Shown here one piece after another: positions 6,184 through 34,917 of a DNA stretch of 64,000 bases. The notes below the pieces were generated by a model. It was not told where the DNA came from. It did no database searches and saw nothing but the letters and a program-made list of their open reading frames with translations. How positions within the stretch are numbered: position 1 is the first letter of the stretch; each line of letters begins with the position of its first letter. Source of the stretch: Clostridia bacterium (GTDB lineage: Bacteria; Bacillota; Clostridia; RGIG7378); assembly GCA_017559445.1 (NCBI GenBank), contig JAFYSJ010000023.1, positions 1-64,000 of the forward strand. The letters are read 5' to 3'. Both the position numbers and the translations under genes were made by a program.

Positions 6184-9100
6184 TTAGAATAATCCATCAA
6201 AAAGGCTCATCTGAGAACTGTATGGTATGTCGCCAAGAGATCCCATCTGATGCATAGTATCAATTAAAGTCTTACTCAGCTTGGAAACTCTCTGTCCAAT
6301 TTCCTCAACTGTCTTGTAAGTACCATTTGCCTCTCTATCTGCAACAATTTCGTTAGCTACAGATTCACCAAGACCAGGTACAGCTACAAGTGGTGGCAAA
6401 ATAGTCTTGCCGTCCTCCATTACCAAGTACCTAGTGGCATGAGATGTCATGATATTTGGTATAGTAAAACCTATTCCTCTATGATACATTTCGTCAACAA
6501 TTTCGTAAAGGCCCACGGACTTTTGGTCCTTAGGAGAAGCCTTTTTACCCTGAGCGATAATGTCCTTCATATGTAGGAAGTTCTTCTCTACACCACCAGC
6601 CATCCACTCTAAGTCAAAATCGTTGCCAGATACAGTATAGTATGCAGCATAGAAATGAGCTGGATAGTAAAGTTTAAACCAGCCAAGTCTCTGAGCTGCC
6701 ATGGAATATGCAACAGCATGAGCCTTAGGGAACATGTACTTAATCTTCTTACAAGAATCGATGTACCAATCTGGAACTCCATGATCTCTCATTTCCTGTT
6801 CCTTTTCAGGCTTAATGCCCTTTCCCTTACGAACACCTTCCATGATACTAAAGGATTCTGCAGGATCCATGCCCTTGAGGATTAAGTATGTCATGATGTC
6901 GTCTCGACAAGCAATAAGCTCTGAAATTGTACATGTACCGTTGTCGATAAGGTCTTTACCATTGCCAAGCCATACGTCAGTTCCGTGAGAAAGTCCAGAA
7001 ATCTGCAAAAGGTCAAAGAACGACTTAGGTTGACAGTCCATAAGCATACCTCGAACAAAGTTAGTACCACTTTCTGGCAAACCAAGTGTACCGGTTGTGG
7101 ACTCAATGTCACCAGGCTTAAGTCCAAGGGGTTCAACTGAAGTAAAGAGCTTAATAACCTCTGGGTCGAACATTGGAACATCTTCCATTGCAACACTTGT
7201 ATGTGTTGTCAAATATCTAAGCATGGTTGGGGCTGTATGGCCCAAAATATCCAGCTTAAGAATAGTATCGTGAAGTGAGCTAAAGGCAAAATGAGTAGTA
7301 ATAATGTCACTATTTACATCATCTGCAGGATGCTGGAGCGGCGTAAAGTCATGTACATCATACTCTCTAGGTACAACGATAATACCTCCAGGATGCTGAC
7401 CTGTAGAACGCTTAGTTCCCATGCAACCAAGCTGAATTCTGTGAACCTCAGCTTCGCTCATCTGTATGCTATGGTCCTCGTTATAGTGAGTAACGTAACC
7501 GTAAGCTGTCTTATCAGCTACAGTAGAAATAGTTCCTGCACGGAAAACGTTTTCTTTACCAAAGAGAACTTCGATATATTTCATAGCCTTTCCCTGATAT
7601 TCACCTGAGAAGTTAAGGTCGATATCTGGAATTTTCATGTTACCTTCGAATCCAAGGAATGTTTCGAAAGGAATGTTATGTCCATCTCTCTTAAGATCTG
7701 TGCCACAGTTTGGACACTGCTTAGGAGGCATGTCAAAACCAACATGGTACTCACCCTGCGTGAAGAAATGTGAATATTTACACTTGGGGCAAACGTAATG
7801 TGGTGGAAGTGCGTTAACCTCAGTAATACCACTCATATTTGCAACAAAGGATGAACCTACGGAACCTCTAGAGTCTACCTTATGGCCGTTACTCTGGCTG
7901 TTATATACAAGCTTCTGGGCGATCATATACATAACGGAATATCCGTTCTTGATAATACCGTCCAACTCCTTAACAAGTCTTGTCTCAACAAGCTCTGGCA
8001 ATGGATCACCATATATTTCGTGGGCCCTATTCATGCACATTTCACGGAGTTCCTTGTCGGAATCCTGAAGCTTTGGTGGATGCATACCCTTAGGAATAGG
8101 TCTAATGTTATCCTCAATCATATCAGCGATCATGTTTGGATTTGTAATAACAAATTCCTTAGCTCTGTCGCCGAAATAACGGAATTCCTGAAGCATTTCA
8201 TCTGTTGTCTTAAAGTAAAGCTCTGCCTGCTTATCTGCATCCTCAAAGCCCTTACCATACATAATAACTCTACGGAAAACCTCATCTCTTGGGTTAAGGA
8301 AATGTACGTCTCCAGTAGCAACAACAGGCTTACCAATTCTATCCGCAATAGTAACTATCTTGCGGTTAAAGTTGCGCAAATCCTCATCATTAGTTGCCAT
8401 ACCCTTGCGAATCATGAATCTGTTGTTATCGATTGGCTGAATCTCCAAGAAATCATAGAAATTCGCAATCTTATCAAGTTCTTCATCAGGCTTACCTGCC
8501 AACATTGCGCGGAATAATTCGCCTGCCTCACATGCAGAACCAATAATCAAACCCTCACGATACATTTCTAAGAGTCTACGAGGGATTCGTGGCTGTCTAT
8601 GGAAATAATTCAAGTTAGATGCTGTAACGAGTCTGTAGAGATTTTTGAGACCCACAGCGTCCTTTACAAGCAAAATTACGTGATAAGTCTGTGTTTTAGT
8701 TGTATTAATGGACAAATTATTCATCCTAGCAATGCCAGGAAGCTGAGAATAAAAATCCTTTTGCTCAAGTAGTTCCAAAAGCTTAAAGAAAATACCTCCA
8801 CAGCAAACACAATCATCCACAGCTCTGTGGTGATTCTCAAGCTCTACATCCAAATATTTTGCAACTGTATCTAACTTGTAATTCTGAATACCTGTAAGAA
8901 TAAGGCGTCTAGAAAGCTCACATGTATCGATATAAACTGGGTCATTCCAGGAAAATCCTAATCTCTTAGTATTTTCTTCAATAAAACCAACATCAAAAGG
9001 AGCATTATGTGCAACAAGAATGGAATTGTCTATAAACTTAAGGAATTCTGGCAAAATTTCCTCAATTGTTGGCGCATCTGCCACCATTGCATCAGAAATT

Positions 9101-10554
9101 CCGTGAATTGCAAAGCTCTCATCTGGAATTGGTCTCTCAGGGTTAACAAATGAGGAGAATCTACCTACGATTTCACCATTTGTGTTATATCTAACGGCAC
9201 CAATTTCGATAATCTTATCTGTTGTCTTGTAAAGACCAGTTGTCTCAAGGTCAAATACAACATAATCCCTATCTAAATTGTCACCAAGCTTGTAATTAAA
9301 CATTACAAAGTGAGGCTCATCAAAGAGATAGCCTTCCATACCGTAAATAATCTTTACATTAAGCTTGCCAAATGACTTGCACTTAAATGCATCGTCGTAT
9401 GACTGAAGAACTCCGTGGTCAGTAATAGCAACAGCCTTATGACCCCAACGCTCTGCTGTCTTAAGCAGGTCCTCAACTGGAGTAATTCCATCCATAGCAC
9501 TCATTGCTGTATGCATGTGAAGCTCTACGCGCTTTTCTTCGCACTTATCCTCACGCTCCTGCCATGTACCAAACTTAAGAGTTGTACCCTTAATAGTTGT
9601 TTCCTTGGAGAAAGTATCGTACTGAGCCTCGCCCTGTACATAAACTGCCTTTCCTACTTTAATCTCAGCCTTTACATCTGCAATTTTGTCCTCTTTTACA
9701 AAGAACTTTACCTTAATACTAGATGTGTAATCTGTAACATCCAATGAGAACAGGTAGGCACCGCTCTTAAGCTGACGATCCTCAGTTGCAATTACCTGAC
9801 CGAAAATAGCAACAACATAGGAATCTGGAGTAATCTCACTAATTGGAGTAATCTCCTGTGTAATTTCTCTACCAATAAAGGCCGTTGCCTTCTTAGCACC
9901 TTCATCTGTATTCACCTTCGCTCTAGCACGTGCAGAAACAGATGGAGCGATGATGTCGTCCTTGCGCTGTTTTTTCTCCTTAGGTGCTTCAGGTGCCTTG
10001 TAGTTAAGGTCAATATTGCTAAGATCTAGGGATTTAAGGTGTCCCACATCCTGTGGATTTTCATCTGTTAGCAAGTTTGTAGATGTTTTGCCTGACTTAT
10101 CTGTAAAAGATACGTTACAGTTAATACCAAGCTGCTCATAAACAATATCGTGGATAGTTCTGTCAAAGTTCATGCTCTTAAGGAATGTAGAACAATCTCT
10201 GCCAAGTTTAATATAAATAGTCTTGTCATCCACAGACCAAACACTGTTTTTGAGGAAACCATAAGAAGATGGTGCTCTCTCAGAAAGAACCTGTCTGATG
10301 TGATCTAAGTATTGAGATAAATCGTGACCTTCTTCCGGCTGAGCTAATCTATAAGTAATCTTAACAGAGCCAACATCGTATGATTTGGCAAAAATAGTCT
10401 CAAGCTGACGAAGATAGCTATCTGAATAAGTTACAGGACCTGTAACATCAATATGAACACAATTAGTTTCCTTAATGAGCTTACAAGAATTAACCTTCTT
10501 GTCGCTTAAGAAGGTTTTAATCATGCTATTCTCAGTGGATGTAATTTTGCTCAT
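6184..10554 (-). CDS. polC: DNA polymerase III alpha subunit, PolC type
   Basis: This 1456-residue replicative polymerase is typical of low-GC Gram-positives. An N-terminal domain and OB fold (QVIATEDRQLKSG..) precede a PHP domain starting ELHMHTAMSAMDG near 346. The DnaQ-like 3'-5' exonuclease (VFDLETTG) is inserted near 433. A Cys4 zinc motif (CPKC...CPNCG) lies near 920-945, and the palm motif PDIDLNFSGEYQ near 980 carries catalytic Asp residues. Tandem HhH and the tail motif MSLFDGLF (beta-clamp binding, QMSLF) end the protein. ATG and the ispG stop overlap as ATGA. No truncation or frame break is seen. Confidence 0.98.
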   Translation of the reverse strand: MSKITSTENSMIKTFLSDKKVNSCKLIKETNCVHIDVTGPVTYSDSYLRQLETIFAKSYDVGSVKITYRLAQPEEGHDLSQYLDHIRQVLSERAPSSYGFLKNSVWSVDDKTIYIKLGRDCSTFLKSMNFDRTIHDIVYEQLGINCNVSFTDKSGKTSTNLLTDENPQDVGHLKSLDLSNIDLNYKAPEAPKEKKQRKDDIIAPSVSARARAKVNTDEGAKKATAFIGREITQEITPISEITPDSYVVAIFGQVIATEDRQLKSGAYLFSLDVTDYTSSIKVKFFVKEDKIADVKAEIKVGKAVYVQGEAQYDTFSKETTIKGTTLKFGTWQEREDKCEEKRVELHMHTAMSAMDGITPVEDLLKTAERWGHKAVAITDHGVLQSYDDAFKCKSFGKLNVKIIYGMEGYLFDEPHFVMFNYKLGDNLDRDYVVFDLETTGLYKTTDKIIEIGAVRYNTNGEIVGRFSSFVNPERPIPDESFAIHGISDAMVADAPTIEEILPEFLKFIDNSILVAHNAPFDVGFIEENTKRLGFSWNDPVYIDTCELSRRLILTGIQNYKLDTVAKYLDVELENHHRAVDDCVCCGGIFFKLLELLEQKDFYSQLPGIARMNNLSINTTKTQTYHVILLVKDAVGLKNLYRLVTASNLNYFHRQPRIPRRLLEMYREGLIIGSACEAGELFRAMLAGKPDEELDKIANFYDFLEIQPIDNNRFMIRKGMATNDEDLRNFNRKIVTIADRIGKPVVATGDVHFLNPRDEVFRRVIMYGKGFEDADKQAELYFKTTDEMLQEFRYFGDRAKEFVITNPNMIADMIEDNIRPIPKGMHPPKLQDSDKELREMCMNRAHEIYGDPLPELVETRLVKELDGIIKNGYSVMYMIAQKLVYNSQSNGHKVDSRGSVGSSFVANMSGITEVNALPPHYVCPKCKYSHFFTQGEYHVGFDMPPKQCPNCGTDLKRDGHNIPFETFLGFEGNMKIPDIDLNFSGEYQGKAMKYIEVLFGKENVFRAGTISTVADKTAYGYVTHYNEDHSIQMSEAEVHRIQLGCMGTKRSTGQHPGGIIVVPREYDVHDFTPLQHPADDVNSDIITTHFAFSSLHDTILKLDILGHTAPTMLRYLTTHTSVAMEDVPMFDPEVIKLFTSVEPLGLKPGDIESTTGTLGLPESGTNFVRGMLMDCQPKSFFDLLQISGLSHGTDVWLGNGKDLIDNGTCTISELIACRDDIMTYLILKGMDPAESFSIMEGVRKGKGIKPEKEQEMRDHGVPDWYIDSCKKIKYMFPKAHAVAYSMAAQRLGWFKLYYPAHFYAAYYTVSGNDFDLEWMAGGVEKNFLHMKDIIAQGKKASPKDQKSVGLYEIVDEMYHRGIGFTIPNIMTSHATRYLVMEDGKTILPPLVAVPGLGESVANEIVADREANGTYKTVEEIGQRVSKLSKTLIDTMHQMGSLGDIPYSSQMSLFDGLF

Positions 10555-27305: not shown

Positions 27306-27836
27306 TTAAAAAATACTGTGATTTTTAAGAATTTCTTGTGCCATTTCTAATACAGGCAATTCTCTATTACCAACCAAAGTGCCAAGTTTAGTATCCATAC
27401 GGCTTACATATTCGTTGTGAGCCTCCTGGTATGTTAACTTAAGTGTTGACAAATGGAACACATTTTTCTCATCTTCAGTCAAATTATTACGTCCAAAGGA
27501 TGTGATTTCACAAAGGAAGTAGTTATTAATATTGTGTCTATGAATCAGGTTATAGTAATCTTCTACTACTCCAATTTTGCCTAAAATATTAACATTTACA
27601 CCAAGTTCCTCAAGAAGTTCTCGCTTAATGGCAGTTTCAAGTTCTTCATTGGGCTCTGCTCCACCACCCGCTGTTTCGATTATGGTGGCTTTGCCAAAAT
27701 CGTCATCACGACAAGCGCGAACAAAATAGTAATAACCATCCTGGTCTACTACTATGGCTCTAGCAATTTGTCTATCATGATCAGTGTATGTATATGGCCA
27801 CTGTGTATCTTGTAGTTTTAAGTAAAGTGTGTTCAT
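27306..27836 (-). CDS. Nudix hydrolase
   Basis: A 176-residue protein with an exact Nudix box, GGGAEPNEELETAIKRELLEELGV (G-x5-E-x7-RELLEELG, near residues 57-80). Nudix enzymes cleave nucleoside diphosphates linked to another group, including ADP-ribose and NAD(H); the substrate is not evident. Its ATG overlaps the stop of the tandem-TIR gene as ATGA, so it is the last gene of a four-gene operon. A plain housekeeping clean-up role is possible. Confidence 0.92.
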   Translation of the reverse strand: MNTLYLKLQDTQWPYTYTDHDRQIARAIVVDQDGYYYFVRACRDDDFGKATIIETAGGGAEPNEELETAIKRELLEELGVNVNILGKIGVVEDYYNLIHRHNINNYFLCEITSFGRNNLTEDEKNVFHLSTLKLTYQEAHNEYVSRMDTKLGTLVGNRELPVLEMAQEILKNHSIF

Positions 27837-28597
27837 GACAAAATAATGTTGGAACTAATTCTCTCAACAACCTTAGAAATATCTTCATCTGTCGGATTAT
27901 TTGGCAAGCGATAACATTGACGCTTATTCAACATTAAATTCATGGCAGGACTAAGCTCTGGATTACCTACATAAATTGGGATTATTCTTCCATCAAGATC
28001 AAATGCTAATCTAAGTTCATCTCTAAAATTTAGTGATTTAACTGAATTTTCAGTAATTAATGCAATAACGCATCCCTCAGCAGATGCTTGCACAATTGCG
28101 TTGGCAATCTCTTCTCCCCAACCAAAGCCGATTTCAATTCCTTCGTCCGAAAAAACAAGGAAGTCTTTTTCGATCAGCTTATTCTTTATGTGCTTATGAA
28201 TCGCATAGTCCTTATGCGAGTAAGCAATATATACTCGGAGCTTTTGGGATATTTTATTGATTACTTCGCTTATGGACTTAGGATTATCTAAATCCACAGT
28301 CAAAATCTTCTTTTTATTGGAGCTAGTAATATACTCTCTTTCCATGTTTACCCACTTGGACTTACGAGAATTTTCGCTATTTACAAATACAAACCACTCA
28401 CGAGCATCTATCTCGCGCTTAATAAGCTCCTCAATTTCGCCATCCTCAGAAAGGCACTTCAAATAAAAGCAAAGTGGCTCAAAACCATCCTCCTCTAATT
28501 TGTTACGAATCTTACGAACTTCCTCAATATCTGCATGGGAATGGGATAAGAATATATAACCTGTATTTTCTTTTTTAAGTTTATCAAAAATACCCAT
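27833..28597 (-). CDS. Tandem TIR-domain protein
   Basis: A 254-residue protein made almost only of two TIR-like domains. TIR1 (about 13-120) opens YIFLSHSHADIEEVRK, has EIEELIKREID and ends in SENSRKSKWVNMEREY. TIR2 (about 133-245) opens RVYIAYSHKDYAIHK, has GWGEEIANAIVQAS (the Glu at the usual NADase catalytic place) and ITENSVKSLNFRDELRLA. No sensor, membrane or repeat domain is attached. Bacterial TIR proteins typically hydrolyse or cyclise NAD+ in antiphage defence. The ATG at 28597 has GGAG upstream; the XRE gene stops 4 bp before it. Confidence 0.88.
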   Translation of the reverse strand: MGIFDKLKKENTGYIFLSHSHADIEEVRKIRNKLEEDGFEPLCFYLKCLSEDGEIEELIKREIDAREWFVFVNSENSRKSKWVNMEREYITSSNKKKILTVDLDNPKSISEVINKISQKLRVYIAYSHKDYAIHKHIKNKLIEKDFLVFSDEGIEIGFGWGEEIANAIVQASAEGCVIALITENSVKSLNFRDELRLAFDLDGRIIPIYVGNPELSPAMNLMLNKRQCYRLPNNPTDEDISKVVERISSNIILS

Positions 28598-28601
28598 AGT
28601 A

Positions 28602-29234
28602 CTACTCCAAAATGTCTTCGATTTTACAACACAAAACATTGGCTAAGGATTTCAAATGGTTATGTTGTGCGTTGTTGATATTAGTCTGCCTCTGCTCGTA
28701 CAACTGGATTGATCTAATAGAAACTCCTGACTCCTTAGCAAGTTGCGACTGCGAAAGTTCCCTAAGTTTACGCAATTTAGCCAAGTTAGTCTCTCCTGTT
28801 GATACCATCATTTTATCAAAAACATCTCTTGCTTTTCTAGGGTCTACTTCATGGAGCGGGTAATATAACCTAAAAATTGTTTCAAAAGGTATTTTTTTAA
28901 GAATTTCCTTAAAAGGTTTTCCAGATTCCCACTGATAATATGCCAATATCCATCCTGTCCAATACTCTGGTGGATAATCGATATAAGACAGATATGTGTT
29001 GCGCGTTGAATTATTGCCACACCTATTAAGTACAGTCATGGCCAACTCCATGCCAGACATACCAGAAATATACTTAACATTTCCTCTTTCAAACTGCTCT
29101 GCAATACCGCTAGCAATAAACAGATCGAAGAACTCCTGACCATCCATGTTATTTAGGATCGTAGCATATTCCACAGCACCACCAAGTGCATCCATTGCGT
29201 CATCTAAATATATTTTATCGTAGGCGTGGGTCAT
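28602..29234 (-). CDS. XRE-type HTH protein, probable antitoxin/regulator of the DUF3990 gene
   Basis: A 210-residue protein. Residues about 1-145 form a helical domain with IDYPPEYWTGWILAYYQWESGKPFKEIL, a pattern I associate with proteins encoded beside DUF3990 genes in Clostridia. Residues about 150-205 are a Cro/C1-type HTH (LRKLRELSQSQLAKESGVSIRSIQLYEQ). It overlaps the DUF3990 gene by 20 bp. It probably neutralises that protein and represses the operon, but this is inferred. Confidence 0.85.
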   Translation of the reverse strand: MTHAYDKIYLDDAMDALGGAVEYATILNNMDGQEFFDLFIASGIAEQFERGNVKYISGMSGMELAMTVLNRCGNNSTRNTYLSYIDYPPEYWTGWILAYYQWESGKPFKEILKKIPFETIFRLYYPLHEVDPRKARDVFDKMMVSTGETNLAKLRKLRELSQSQLAKESGVSIRSIQLYEQRQTNINNAQHNHLKSLANVLCCKIEDILE

Positions 29235-29889
29235 CGTTCTTTACCTTCTCGTTGATTATATCTCGAACAAAAAGTTCACTTCCAACATCAAAATCTGCGC
29301 CATGATTATCTAAATAAGCTCTTCTCGCTTTTGTCTCACGTTGCATTCTCTTATTGTAGTATATAGTTGAATCAGCAATCTCAAAGCCCAAATACTTAAT
29401 TTGCTCAAAGGACTTAGGCGAAATCAAAACTATCTGATTGCCTAAATCTCCTAATTTCATTGCTCGAGATAGCTGAGTAACAGAAATACTGTTGTTAATA
29501 AAGTCCTTTGCGTAGCTAAAATATGAATCATCTGCTCTATAACCACATACAACATCATATTCATAAATATCTGGCAAAAATTCCTGAATTAGATAATCGC
29601 TGGCTTCACGAGCAATAATTGTTCTTTTTTCAAAATATCGGTTATTCAACAATACTGCAATCCAATTGAGTACATTGTAGTCCTTTGAATTCAAATCAAG
29701 AATCTTAAGTCCAGTTATGTCAAACTCATATTTATTGGAAAAGCCAAACATATCTGAAGAACATGCCCACTCCTTGGACAACTCTAAAGATTCCGTACAG
29801 TAAAATCCCTGACCATAGTCATTATTTAATCCACCTTTGCCAAATTCTGGTTTATCTACAATTTCCTGTGATCCGTGATACAAAATCAT
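29215..29889 (-). CDS. DUF3990 protein, ADP-ribosyltransferase-like
   Basis: A 224-residue protein. MILYHGSQEIVDKPEFGKG and NDYGQGFYCTESLELSKEWA at the N terminus match the DUF3990 pattern (YHGS...DFGxGFYxT), regarded as part of the ADP-ribosyltransferase superfamily with motif-I His and motif-II Tyr. NQIVLISPKSFEQIKYLGFE near 160 is the last motif, with Gln where many ARTs have Glu, so activity is uncertain. AAGGAGG precedes the ATG. As first gene of the operon, before the XRE partner, it is a likely toxin. Confidence 0.82.
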   Translation of the reverse strand: MILYHGSQEIVDKPEFGKGGLNNDYGQGFYCTESLELSKEWACSSDMFGFSNKYEFDITGLKILDLNSKDYNVLNWIAVLLNNRYFEKRTIIAREASDYLIQEFLPDIYEYDVVCGYRADDSYFSYAKDFINNSISVTQLSRAMKLGDLGNQIVLISPKSFEQIKYLGFEIADSTIYYNKRMQRETKARRAYLDNHGADFDVGSELFVRDIINEKVKNDDPRLR

Positions 29890-32229: not shown

Positions 32230-33261
32230 TTACTTGCAATATGAAACAAGGAGCTTCAATGTGTTCTCCACACCGTCCTTGTGGCTTCTCTCGTATCCAT
32301 GGGATGCATACACACCAGGGCCAATAAGTCCATGACGAAGATCGTGTCCTGCAACTAATGTTGCATCTACATCTGAACCATAAAAAGGATAAATATCCAC
32401 TGCAAAATCAATGTTATTGTCCTTAGATGCCTTAACCAAACCTGTAACTACATCGTAGTTGTAAGGTCCGCGAGAATCCTTTGCACAGATAGAAACCATG
32501 TGCTCATTGCATGTCAAACCATTACCAACACAACCCATATCTACAGAAATCATCTCTGTAACACCTGCTGGAATGGATGCTGCTCCACCATGTCCAACCT
32601 CTTCGTAAACAGTGATGTAATGATATTGAGCATTTTCAAGTTCGATGTTGTTATCCTTAATGTACTTTGCATATCCAAGAAGAATGCTTACGCTAAGTTT
32701 ATCGTCTAAGAAACGGCTCTTGATATAACCCTTTTCAGTAATTGTAGTTCTAGGATCAAAGCAAACTATATCGCCAACCATGATTCCAAGCTTTTCTGTA
32801 TCTGCCTTGGAATTAACCACCTCATCCAAAACAACTTCCATCTCTGGGAACTTGCGAACAGTATCGCTGTAGGATGGATTCACATGGACGGATGCGTTAT
32901 TAAGCTGGAATGTTCCCTCATATACTCCATCAAAACGTGTTACTATGCGGCAATTTTCTGCCTCAGCATTATTAGGGTTCATACCACCAAGCGGAGAAAC
33001 CTTAAGGTTACCATTTCCCTTAATCTCGGAAACCATGGCTCCCAAAGTGTCTGTATGTGCTGCAAGTACAATTCCGTTGTCCTTGTTCTTACCACCGATG
33101 TTTACTAGAACACAACCCTTAACAGTCATTGTTGCTTCGTAACCGAGCTTTCTGTACTCGTCCATTACAAACTCTGCTGCACGTTTTGTGTAGCCTGTGG
33201 GGCTATCAATTGCCAAAAGCTTACATGTTGTATCTACAATATAGTCTACGTAATTCTTCAT
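32230..33261 (-). CDS. M42-family aminopeptidase
   Basis: A 343-residue di-metal aminopeptidase. AAHTDTLGAMV near 69 (His, Asp), RFLDDKLSVSILLG near 188 (bridging Asp), YEEVGHGGAA near 222 (catalytic Glu-Glu) and VDMGCVGNG near 240, with YASHGYERSH near 318, are the M42 ligands. It trims peptides in the cytoplasm. It overlaps the upstream pseudo-ABC gene by four bases (ATGA) and so shares its transcript. Confidence 0.95.
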   Translation of the reverse strand: MKNYVDYIVDTTCKLLAIDSPTGYTKRAAEFVMDEYRKLGYEATMTVKGCVLVNIGGKNKDNGIVLAAHTDTLGAMVSEIKGNGNLKVSPLGGMNPNNAEAENCRIVTRFDGVYEGTFQLNNASVHVNPSYSDTVRKFPEMEVVLDEVVNSKADTEKLGIMVGDIVCFDPRTTITEKGYIKSRFLDDKLSVSILLGYAKYIKDNNIELENAQYHYITVYEEVGHGGAASIPAGVTEMISVDMGCVGNGLTCNEHMVSICAKDSRGPYNYDVVTGLVKASKDNNIDFAVDIYPFYGSDVDATLVAGHDLRHGLIGPGVYASHGYERSHKDGVENTLKLLVSYCK

Positions 33262-34388
33262 AATTGTTTCGCTCTTTTCTTATAATGCTTTTTGTCCATT
33301 ATTACAACTTTATCGCAAAGTCTACGTAATAACATCTTTTGACTTGATGGAACAATAACAATTCCACCGCTTTTCTTAATCGTTTCAACAATTCCTAATT
33401 CAACTGCTATTTCGAAACGACCAACATAAAGTTCATTTAGCCAAGGATACACAAAAATCTTTTTTCCAGCAGCAAATCCAATAGCTGCAGATGCTAACCA
33501 CTTTTCACCACTGATGAAATCCATATGTCTATCAAATCTCTCATCTGTTAAACTGAACATTTCTTTAATTTGCTCTACTGTATATGGTAAACCACTAAGT
33601 TCTAATGCACTTTCAATGCAATTTCTAATGGTCGGTTCTCCTTTAACATACAATTGCTTATAACAATCTTCATAAACAAAACATGTAAACTCAAGCAACC
33701 TTGAAGGATGAATTTCCCTATTATTTAAGAACATCTTTCCACTGAATGTTTCAGAAGTTCTTCCTCCAATACAATTAGCAAATGCCCAGCTTCCAAAGCC
33801 AAAATCACTAACCAAGCCATATGACATTCCTGAATTTACTTCTAATGTCATCATTGGAAATGAATCTATGGTTTTAGTATGCAAAAAATTGCATTCAACC
33901 GAATCCATAAACTTTTCTAAACAAATAGAATTAATTACGTTGAATCCCCATTTTTTCCTATACTTTTCCACATACGTTTTCCAGAAAAACTTAGGAATAG
34001 AATAATTATAATCTAAAATTACTGTTGGCAAGTTATGAAGGCAATCTGCAAAATCAACAATTTGCTCAGCAATTCCAATCTTTATAACATCTCTTAATTC
34101 ATTTAAAGAACTTTCCAAAAAAAAATAGGCTTTACCAAATTTTAGTTCAGATGTAACATTACATGAATCTTCTCTATCATCAATCCAAAAACTATAAAAT
34201 TCAAAATTATGTATTTCTGGAATTGTCCTGAGAACTTTTCTGAGTTGATTTGCATCACAATTAGATTTAGGAATACGCATTAAATCTAAAATTTTAGATA
34301 TAACTTCAAAGTGAATAACAGCATCCGGATTTGCACGAATAACCACTAAAATCCTATGTAAATCTAGTAAATCAAACTCATTTAACAT
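33258..34388 (-). CDS. Degenerate ABC-ATPase-like protein (pseudo-ATPase)
   Basis: A 376-residue protein with no family I recognise at first sight. Residues 178-365 follow an ABC nucleotide-binding domain step by step, yet the catalytic residues are lost. The Walker A site reads VSDFGFGSWAF (194-203; GK-S/T became GSW), the Q-loop FVYED (238-241), the signature FISGEKW (291-297), Walker B IFVYPWLNE (311-319; no DE), and the H-loop VPSSQ (346-350; His lost), then CDKVVIMDK. Residues 108-165 look like the tail of a second decayed domain (AEQIVDFADCLHNLPTVILDY). ATP hydrolysis is unlikely. It is co-transcribed with the M42 peptidase; the start has only a weak GAG upstream. Confidence 0.7.
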   Translation of the reverse strand: MLNEFDLLDLHRILVVIRANPDAVIHFEVISKILDLMRIPKSNCDANQLRKVLRTIPEIHNFEFYSFWIDDREDSCNVTSELKFGKAYFFLESSLNELRDVIKIGIAEQIVDFADCLHNLPTVILDYNYSIPKFFWKTYVEKYRKKWGFNVINSICLEKFMDSVECNFLHTKTIDSFPMMTLEVNSGMSYGLVSDFGFGSWAFANCIGGRTSETFSGKMFLNNREIHPSRLLEFTCFVYEDCYKQLYVKGEPTIRNCIESALELSGLPYTVEQIKEMFSLTDERFDRHMDFISGEKWLASAAIGFAAGKKIFVYPWLNELYVGRFEIAVELGIVETIKKSGGIVIVPSSQKMLLRRLCDKVVIMDKKHYKKRAKQL

Positions 34389-34416: not shown

Positions 34417-34917
34417 CTACTCTGCAGTAAAAGCATTCTTAGCTCTATTTGTTGCGTGAATATACACATTTGGTGCATCCTGCAAAATACCATTTACCTT
34501 ATCCATATACTCAAGACAAGGATCATCTGCAAACTTTTCACCATTCACATAGTCCAGCTGGTACTTGATTCTGTTCTTGTACTCGATAATGTTATAAAGA
34601 GAATCGGAAATTCTGTCCAAAATGGACTCCTTTTTATCCTCGTTGCAAATCTTAATTGCGAAAATCAAAGAATCCAACTGGTTGCTAGATGCTTGAATAG
34701 CATCATCTACCATACCAATGTTGTAGTATGAATCAGAGATATAACCCCAAACGCTAGCTGCATCTTCGCCATCACCTGAGAATCTAAGTTCAATAGTCTT
34801 GGTCAACTCTCCAAGTGCATGAATATTCTCAAGCAACTCATCAGATGCACCATTACTAATCTGTGAGTCAATCTTATTCTTTAATGCAACAAATTGTTCA
34901 ATTACTTTTAAATCCAT
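34417..34917 (-). CDS. Helical protein of unknown function downstream of recO
   Basis: A 166-residue, acidic, mostly helical protein (MDLKVIEQFVALKNKIDSQIS...; YISDSYYNIGMVDDAIQASSNQLDSLIFAI has a TPR-like rhythm). No signal peptide, membrane segment or catalytic motif is visible. It lies 2 bp after recO and 28 bp before the pseudo-ABC gene. I do not recognise it. Confidence 0.65.
   Translation of the reverse strand: MDLKVIEQFVALKNKIDSQISNGASDELLENIHALGELTKTIELRFSGDGEDAASVWGYISDSYYNIGMVDDAIQASSNQLDSLIFAIKICNEDKKESILDRISDSLYNIIEYKNRIKYQLDYVNGEKFADDPCLEYMDKVNGILQDAPNVYIHATNRAKNAFTAE

Follow-up and report, generated by a model that had tools for sequence, protein, structure and literature searches.

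What could be the function of a protein that keeps the fold of an ABC ATPase after the motifs of its ATP site have been lost? This question is raised by a gene on the minus strand of a 64,000-nucleotide stretch of DNA from a Clostridia bacterium (assembly GCA_017559445.1, contig JAFYSJ010000023.1), which is referred to here as the window. The gene (33258..34388) begins with an ATG at 34388 and runs through an open frame of 376 codons, without internal stops, to a stop codon at 33258-33260, and its product found no match in profile searches of Pfam, NCBIfam, PADLOC or PHROG. The likely answer is that it encodes an orphan, horizontally acquired polyimmunity protein, with an N-terminal immunity-like domain followed by a C-terminal pseudo-ABC domain, the neutralization of a toxin being inferred.

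The search for relatives divided the protein in two, at residues 1-151 and 151-376, and the two domains were treated apart, given that a joint alignment of both misaligned them. The N-terminal domain (residues 1-150; 33939..34388, minus strand) has stand-alone relatives of approximately 150-180 residues, and the C-terminal domain (residues 151-376; 33261..33938, minus strand) matches stand-alone proteins of about 200-230 residues. The first-pass annotation, made from the sequence alone, had missed that residues 1-150 form a separate domain, which is also found alone.

A single-sequence search of the PDB with the window protein gave MetN as the best match, with an E value of 0.05 over residues 170-365. 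When residues 151-376 were aligned by hhalign to a profile of 13 ABC nucleotide-binding domains (NBDs), a score of 85.2 was obtained (probability 97.8, E 8.3e-13), with residues 172-367 aligned over 189 columns. As controls against the same profile, the reversed sequence scored 22.7 and no shuffle among 200 exceeded 29.4; Era and PhoH, which are P-loop ORFs encoded elsewhere in the window, reached 46.7 and 43.4, and a true ABC protein of the window 323. The members of this profile were picked for their resemblance to the family, which makes the hhalign figure alone somewhat favorable, and an independent test of the fold is provided by structure prediction, in which the AlphaFold input consisted of residues 151-376 and 17 family relatives, with no ABC sequences in the alignment. 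The resulting model had a mean pLDDT of 80.8 and a pTM of 0.83, and the best 50 Foldseek matches in the PDB, among them LptB, EcfA and MetN, were all ABC NBDs (probability 1.00, E from 2.8e-12, TM-score to the query of about 0.6-0.7). Comparison with viral models recovered the same fold. The predicted ABC fold of residues 151-376 can be taken as settled as far as prediction allows. The first-pass annotation had claimed that the fold is retained over residues 178-365 and had proposed a profile-profile search and a structure prediction as checks, both of which returned the ABC NBD.

The motifs of the ATP site are lost, as read from the alignment to ABC profiles and from a comparison across 18 family members. 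At the Walker A position (SDFGFGSWA, residues 194-202; 33783..33809, minus strand), the Lys is replaced by S200, the Ser/Thr by W201 and the Thr by A202, and the Lys and Ser/Thr of the GxxGxGK[ST] motif are missing from all 18 members, with the former occupied by Asn, Ile, Ala or Cys in the relatives and the latter by Trp in 17 of the 18. The Q-loop position (FVYEDCY, residues 237-243; 33660..33680, minus strand) has D241 or E240 in place of Gln, with an Asp corresponding to D241 in 17/18, and at the signature position (FISGEKW, residues 291-297; 33498..33518, minus strand) LSGGQ has become ISGEK. The Asp-Glu pair of Walker B (KKIFVYPWLNE, residues 309-319; 33432..33464, minus strand) is replaced by P315-W316, where Pro is found in 15 and Trp in 17 of the 18 members, and the His of the H-loop (IVIVPSSQKML, residues 343-353; 33330..33362, minus strand) by P347/S348, the Pro at position 347 being invariant in the family (18/18). 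As these replacements are bulky and conserved, the pocket seems to have been filled on purpose and not to be eroding. The first-pass claim that the Walker A Lys, the Walker B Asp/Glu, the Q-loop Gln and the His were all changed was upheld; its broader wording, that every ATP-site residue was lost, is slightly overstated, since the P-loop glycines G197 and G199 and S293-G294 of the signature are still present. It is likely that ATP binding or hydrolysis has been lost, although this is inferred from the sequence and the predicted fold, with no biochemical data.

The same annotation had judged the frame, intact over 376 codons, to be selected and not decayed, and had proposed the ratio of non-synonymous to synonymous change among homologues as a check. 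Pairwise dN/dS among the relatives was 0.09-0.32 (pairs with saturated dS, L013-L080 and L080-L081, were left out), which, together with the conserved replacement residues, indicates that the family is not decaying. Purifying selection is thus shown for the relatives; the window protein has no close orthologue from which the ratio of its own gene could be measured.

Of 391 genomes of the class, about 7 carry the family of the C-terminal domain, and in a phylum-wide draw of 398 genomes it was found only in the window's own genome. A genome scan gave 16 loci, all from uncultured Clostridia/Oscillospiraceae and several from animal gut samples; it was run with a five-row alignment of a single clade, with the other clades under-sampled, and the family alignment is likewise shallow and weighted to one clade. 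Searches of plasmids by tblastn returned only weak true ABC ATPases, those of phages returned nothing, and scans of viral contigs found no relatives. None of the 18 members had a significant Pfam match, whether to an ABC family, to an Imm family or to any other. Many copies stand alone in housekeeping regions, and one clade (L013, L078-L080) is located where no toxin can be recognized. The homology between the C-terminus of the window protein and the clade linked to Rhs toxins is shown by hhalign (probability 99.0, E 2.7e-18, score 118.4 against a shuffle maximum of 23.4) and by blastp (E 1e-12 to 3e-21), at an identity to the toxin-adjacent members of only about 25-30%.

The genomic context of these relatives provides the main evidence on function. 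Immunity genes can be recognized by their position directly 3' of a toxin C-terminal domain and by toxin remnants beside orphan copies, and the first of these is met at four loci. At L040, L050 and L052, an Rhs gene or an Rhs-type toxin ORF is followed directly, or overlapped at its end, by the pseudo-ABC gene, and the three toxins share a C-terminal domain with the consensus TYYHxTTxENAxAI...GGYVYAW...ISFKT...FVxDxGI...PVVSARPGPIxVWDVQIVG; a fourth intact pair, at L090, includes a divergent pseudo-ABC protein. All four intact copies of the toxin domain that were found are followed by a pseudo-ABC gene, and this domain was present in 6 of 17 genomes picked for carrying the family, as opposed to 0/391 genomes of the class. 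The second is met by the orphan copies at L041, L045, L039, L044 and L046, which have the last codons of the toxin, whole or decayed, just 5' of the gene. In these scars, 22-27 of 30 nt are equal to the intact toxin ends, compared with a maximum of 21 among 316 control upstream regions. A fainter trace of toxin peptide at L049 falls below this control. Given that the genomes carrying the family have a modest number of Rhs cores (0-9 each), the abundance of Rhs does not account for the direct adjacency. The pseudo-ABC family is likely to consist of the immunity partners of this Rhs toxin domain, a reading in which toxicity, binding and neutralization are all inferred, without experiment. The window gene itself meets neither of the two conditions.

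The partner toxin domain belongs to no Pfam or NCBIfam family. Its AlphaFold model, built from four sequences, had a pLDDT of 89.3 and a pTM of 0.83, and found no significant match among PDB structures, those with ADP-ribosyltransferases (ARTs) being weak (E 0.3-0.7). The matches of highest probability were ART-fold proteins, namely the rifampin ADP-ribosyltransferase Arr (0.72, one entry), further ART A subunits, and TreX, an Rhs toxin, with its immunity protein. The domain has a conserved His, Tyr and Asp (H9, Y36 and D72 of alignment A13), which might correspond to an Arr-like H-Y-D arrangement, a possibility that rests on inference. The balance of these weak structural matches to a predicted model leans towards an ADP-ribosyltransferase fold.

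In the window, the fusion gene overlaps the downstream gene of an M42 family peptidase (32230..33261, minus strand) by an ATGA stop/start (33258..33261, minus strand). This overlap had been reported in the first-pass annotation, which had also suggested a link to the peptidase; the overlap was confirmed and the link was not supported, as no other inspected family member adjoins an M42 gene and the syntenic site of the sister species has neither gene. In that species, the order of PhoH, an HD-domain protein, YbeY, Era, RecO and a 169-aa protein is kept, and the last of these is followed by ruvA and ruvC on the opposite strand. An M42-linked function was rejected on this synteny; the overlap is likely to be incidental, and the peptidase is regarded as a neighbor outside the system. 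The GC content of the fusion gene is 0.28 in its N-terminal part and 0.33 in its C-terminal part, against 0.41 in the M42 gene and 0.40 in the window, which, together with the absence of the gene from the sister-species site, supports horizontal acquisition. There is no toxin scar beside the gene and no toxin nearby, and the partner domain of the Rhs-linked clade is absent from the window genome assembly (96% complete), where the three Rhs genes all carry other C-terminal toxin domains. The window gene thus has the appearance of a recently acquired orphan immunity gene.

Two further observations were made in the neighborhood. Downstream of recO, a conserved 166-aa protein of unknown function (34417-34917, minus strand), 65% identical in the sister species, has no convincing Pfam match. 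A protein with two TIR-domain stretches (27833-28639, minus strand; Pfam TIR_2, E 6.6e-30, with a weaker ThsB_TIR match) is located near a DUF3990 gene (29215-29889) and an HTH gene (28602-29234), which may form a small defense or toxin module.

The N-terminal half is less certain than the C-terminal one, as it belongs to a small family of distant members. Matches to residues 1-151 are a stand-alone 151-aa protein of the sister species, which is encoded elsewhere, between rpsR and a yabP-like gene, and a 163-aa protein of another genome, which also adjoins an Rhs region. Distant relatives occur in three other genomes of the class, two of these relatives directly following Rhs/HINT-type toxin ORFs, and one of the two overlaps a possible ParB-like nuclease-type ORF, a type judged by eye in the absence of a Pfam match. 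The support for a polyimmunity protein, which would have two or more immunity domains per chain, is uneven, with the C-terminal domain well linked to toxins and the N-terminal domain only through distant relatives found after Rhs/HINT genes; this evidence suggests a second, unrelated immunity-type domain, whose role remains inferred. The possible ParB-like nuclease toxin ORF (L071:1032-1442, plus strand) carries a DGHHRLNDA motif.

In the mechanism proposed here, the C-terminal half would belong to an immunity family derived from the ATPase domain of an ABC transporter, which lost its ATP site but retained the fold, now serving as a scaffold for binding. In the original arrangement, this pseudo-ABC protein would be the cognate partner of the Rhs toxin C-terminal domain, with its putative ADP-ribosyltransferase fold, and would bind the toxin in the cytoplasm, blocking it stoichiometrically without ATP. 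Once joined to the second, unrelated immunity-type domain that the N-terminal half may represent, the fused gene would have been acquired, probably horizontally and unaccompanied by a toxin. Its insertion point in this species would have been after recO, and the protein would now protect against toxins delivered by competitors. The toxin that the window protein itself targets is an inference, with no experiment behind it, and given that the protein is only distantly similar to the toxin-adjacent members, it is possible that its target differs or that it has taken on a new role.

The pseudo-ABC domain shares with the NBDs of ABC transporters (MetN, LptB, EcfA) the whole-domain fold and the collinear positions of the motifs, but it lacks the Walker A Lys/Ser, the Walker B Asp-Glu, the Q-loop Gln, the LSGGQ and the His, and has no permease partner. 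The degenerate-site NBDs of heterodimeric ABC exporters (PMC7756269) also combine an ABC fold with altered motifs, although they function within a membrane transporter and still bind ATP or have one or more active sites. Bacteriocin-immunity ABC pumps such as LanFEG are ABC proteins that serve self-protection, and they too retain ATP binding or a minimum of one active site as parts of a membrane transporter. The pseudo-ABC protein differs from both in having neither a site nor a permease.

The resemblance to the immunity proteins of Rhs and other polymorphic toxins (the Imm families; Zhang et al. 2012, PMC3482391) lies in the small size of the gene and its position immediately 3' of a toxin C-terminal domain (four loci), in the orphan copies and in the toxin scars, whereas the fold of a dead ABC ATPase and the lack of a Pfam Imm match set the family apart. 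Multi-domain polyimmunity proteins have already been described (PMC3482391) and, like these, the window protein appears to combine two different immunity-type domains in one polypeptide; unlike them, it has both domains from undescribed families and is not part of a multi-gene immunity array in this window. Acquired orphan immunity genes have a known protective role in gut bacteria (PMC12247911). In the survey of immunity families (PMC3482391), ABC ATPases are named only as secretion machinery or in a fungal fusion, and none as an immunity protein. An ABC-fold immunity protein was not found in the databases or in the open-licence literature searched, which is not proof of absence; within that scope, it is likely that such a protein is undescribed and that no characterized family matches the window protein. 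If so, an apparently undescribed fold would join those of the immunity proteins in bacterial toxin systems, a case in which a highly abundant enzyme fold has been stripped of catalysis and reused in inter-bacterial conflict. A candidate function is given to an ABC domain with a fully dead ATP site, which can be tested with two genes, and a new toxin-immunity pair is named in uncultured gut Clostridia.

Other explanations should be weighed against this one. The pseudo-ABC protein may be a non-catalytic regulatory or scaffold subunit, of the M42 peptidase or of a membrane protein, with no relation to toxins. The ATGA overlap, which suggests translational coupling to the M42 gene, and the many copies that stand alone in housekeeping regions speak for this reading. 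It is unlikely, however, since no other inspected member adjoins an M42 gene, the sister species lacks both genes at the syntenic site, and the relatives are paired with Rhs toxins or bear toxin scars.

A second alternative is decoy immunity, in which the target of the toxin would be an ABC ATPase and the pseudo-ABC protein a dead, sacrificial copy that absorbs the toxin. The domain is folded like a very common cellular protein, nearest to ATPases of the MetN/LptB/Ecf type, and the partner toxin appears ART-like, the members of this class being known to modify proteins or nucleic acids; one may thus ask whether ABC transporters are the target of the toxin. On the other hand, evidence for an action of the toxin on ABC proteins is lacking, described immunity proteins usually occlude the active site of the toxin (PMC13392607), and the ABC fold might be no more than a scaffold of convenience. 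This reading has no direct support and seems improbable, but it is not excluded, and, if true, the window protein would extend the decoy to a two-domain, two-toxin shield.

The weakest alternative, in which a pseudogene fragment of an ABC ATPase is decaying after a chance fusion to another ORF, is suggested by the lost motifs and the low GC content and is all but excluded, as it is already contradicted by the frame, intact over 376 codons, the family dN/dS of 0.09-0.32, the replacement residues conserved in 15-18 of 18 members, and the independent stand-alone members in many species.

Finally, several small genes were noted beside members of the pseudo-ABC family, whose preferred interpretation remains that of toxin immunity. 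At L086 (7207-9464, minus strand), a pseudo-ABC gene of the L013 type is closely preceded by an Ntox24-like toxin ORF (9042-9464; a weak match, E 0.014) and by a small ORF, possibly the immunity gene of that toxin, and is closely followed by a TIR-type protein; this would represent a second toxin context for the family. In two genomes, a further small family with an FHDSC...MHPIND-type motif adjoins pseudo-ABC genes (L042:9546-9950 and L052:5073-5522, plus strand) and probably represents another immunity protein, the L042 copy having no Pfam match. A short ORF with a double-glycine-type leader (LSAKELDEVSGG; L083:1186-1626, plus strand) adjoins a pseudo-ABC gene of the L013 clade and may encode a bacteriocin-like peptide.
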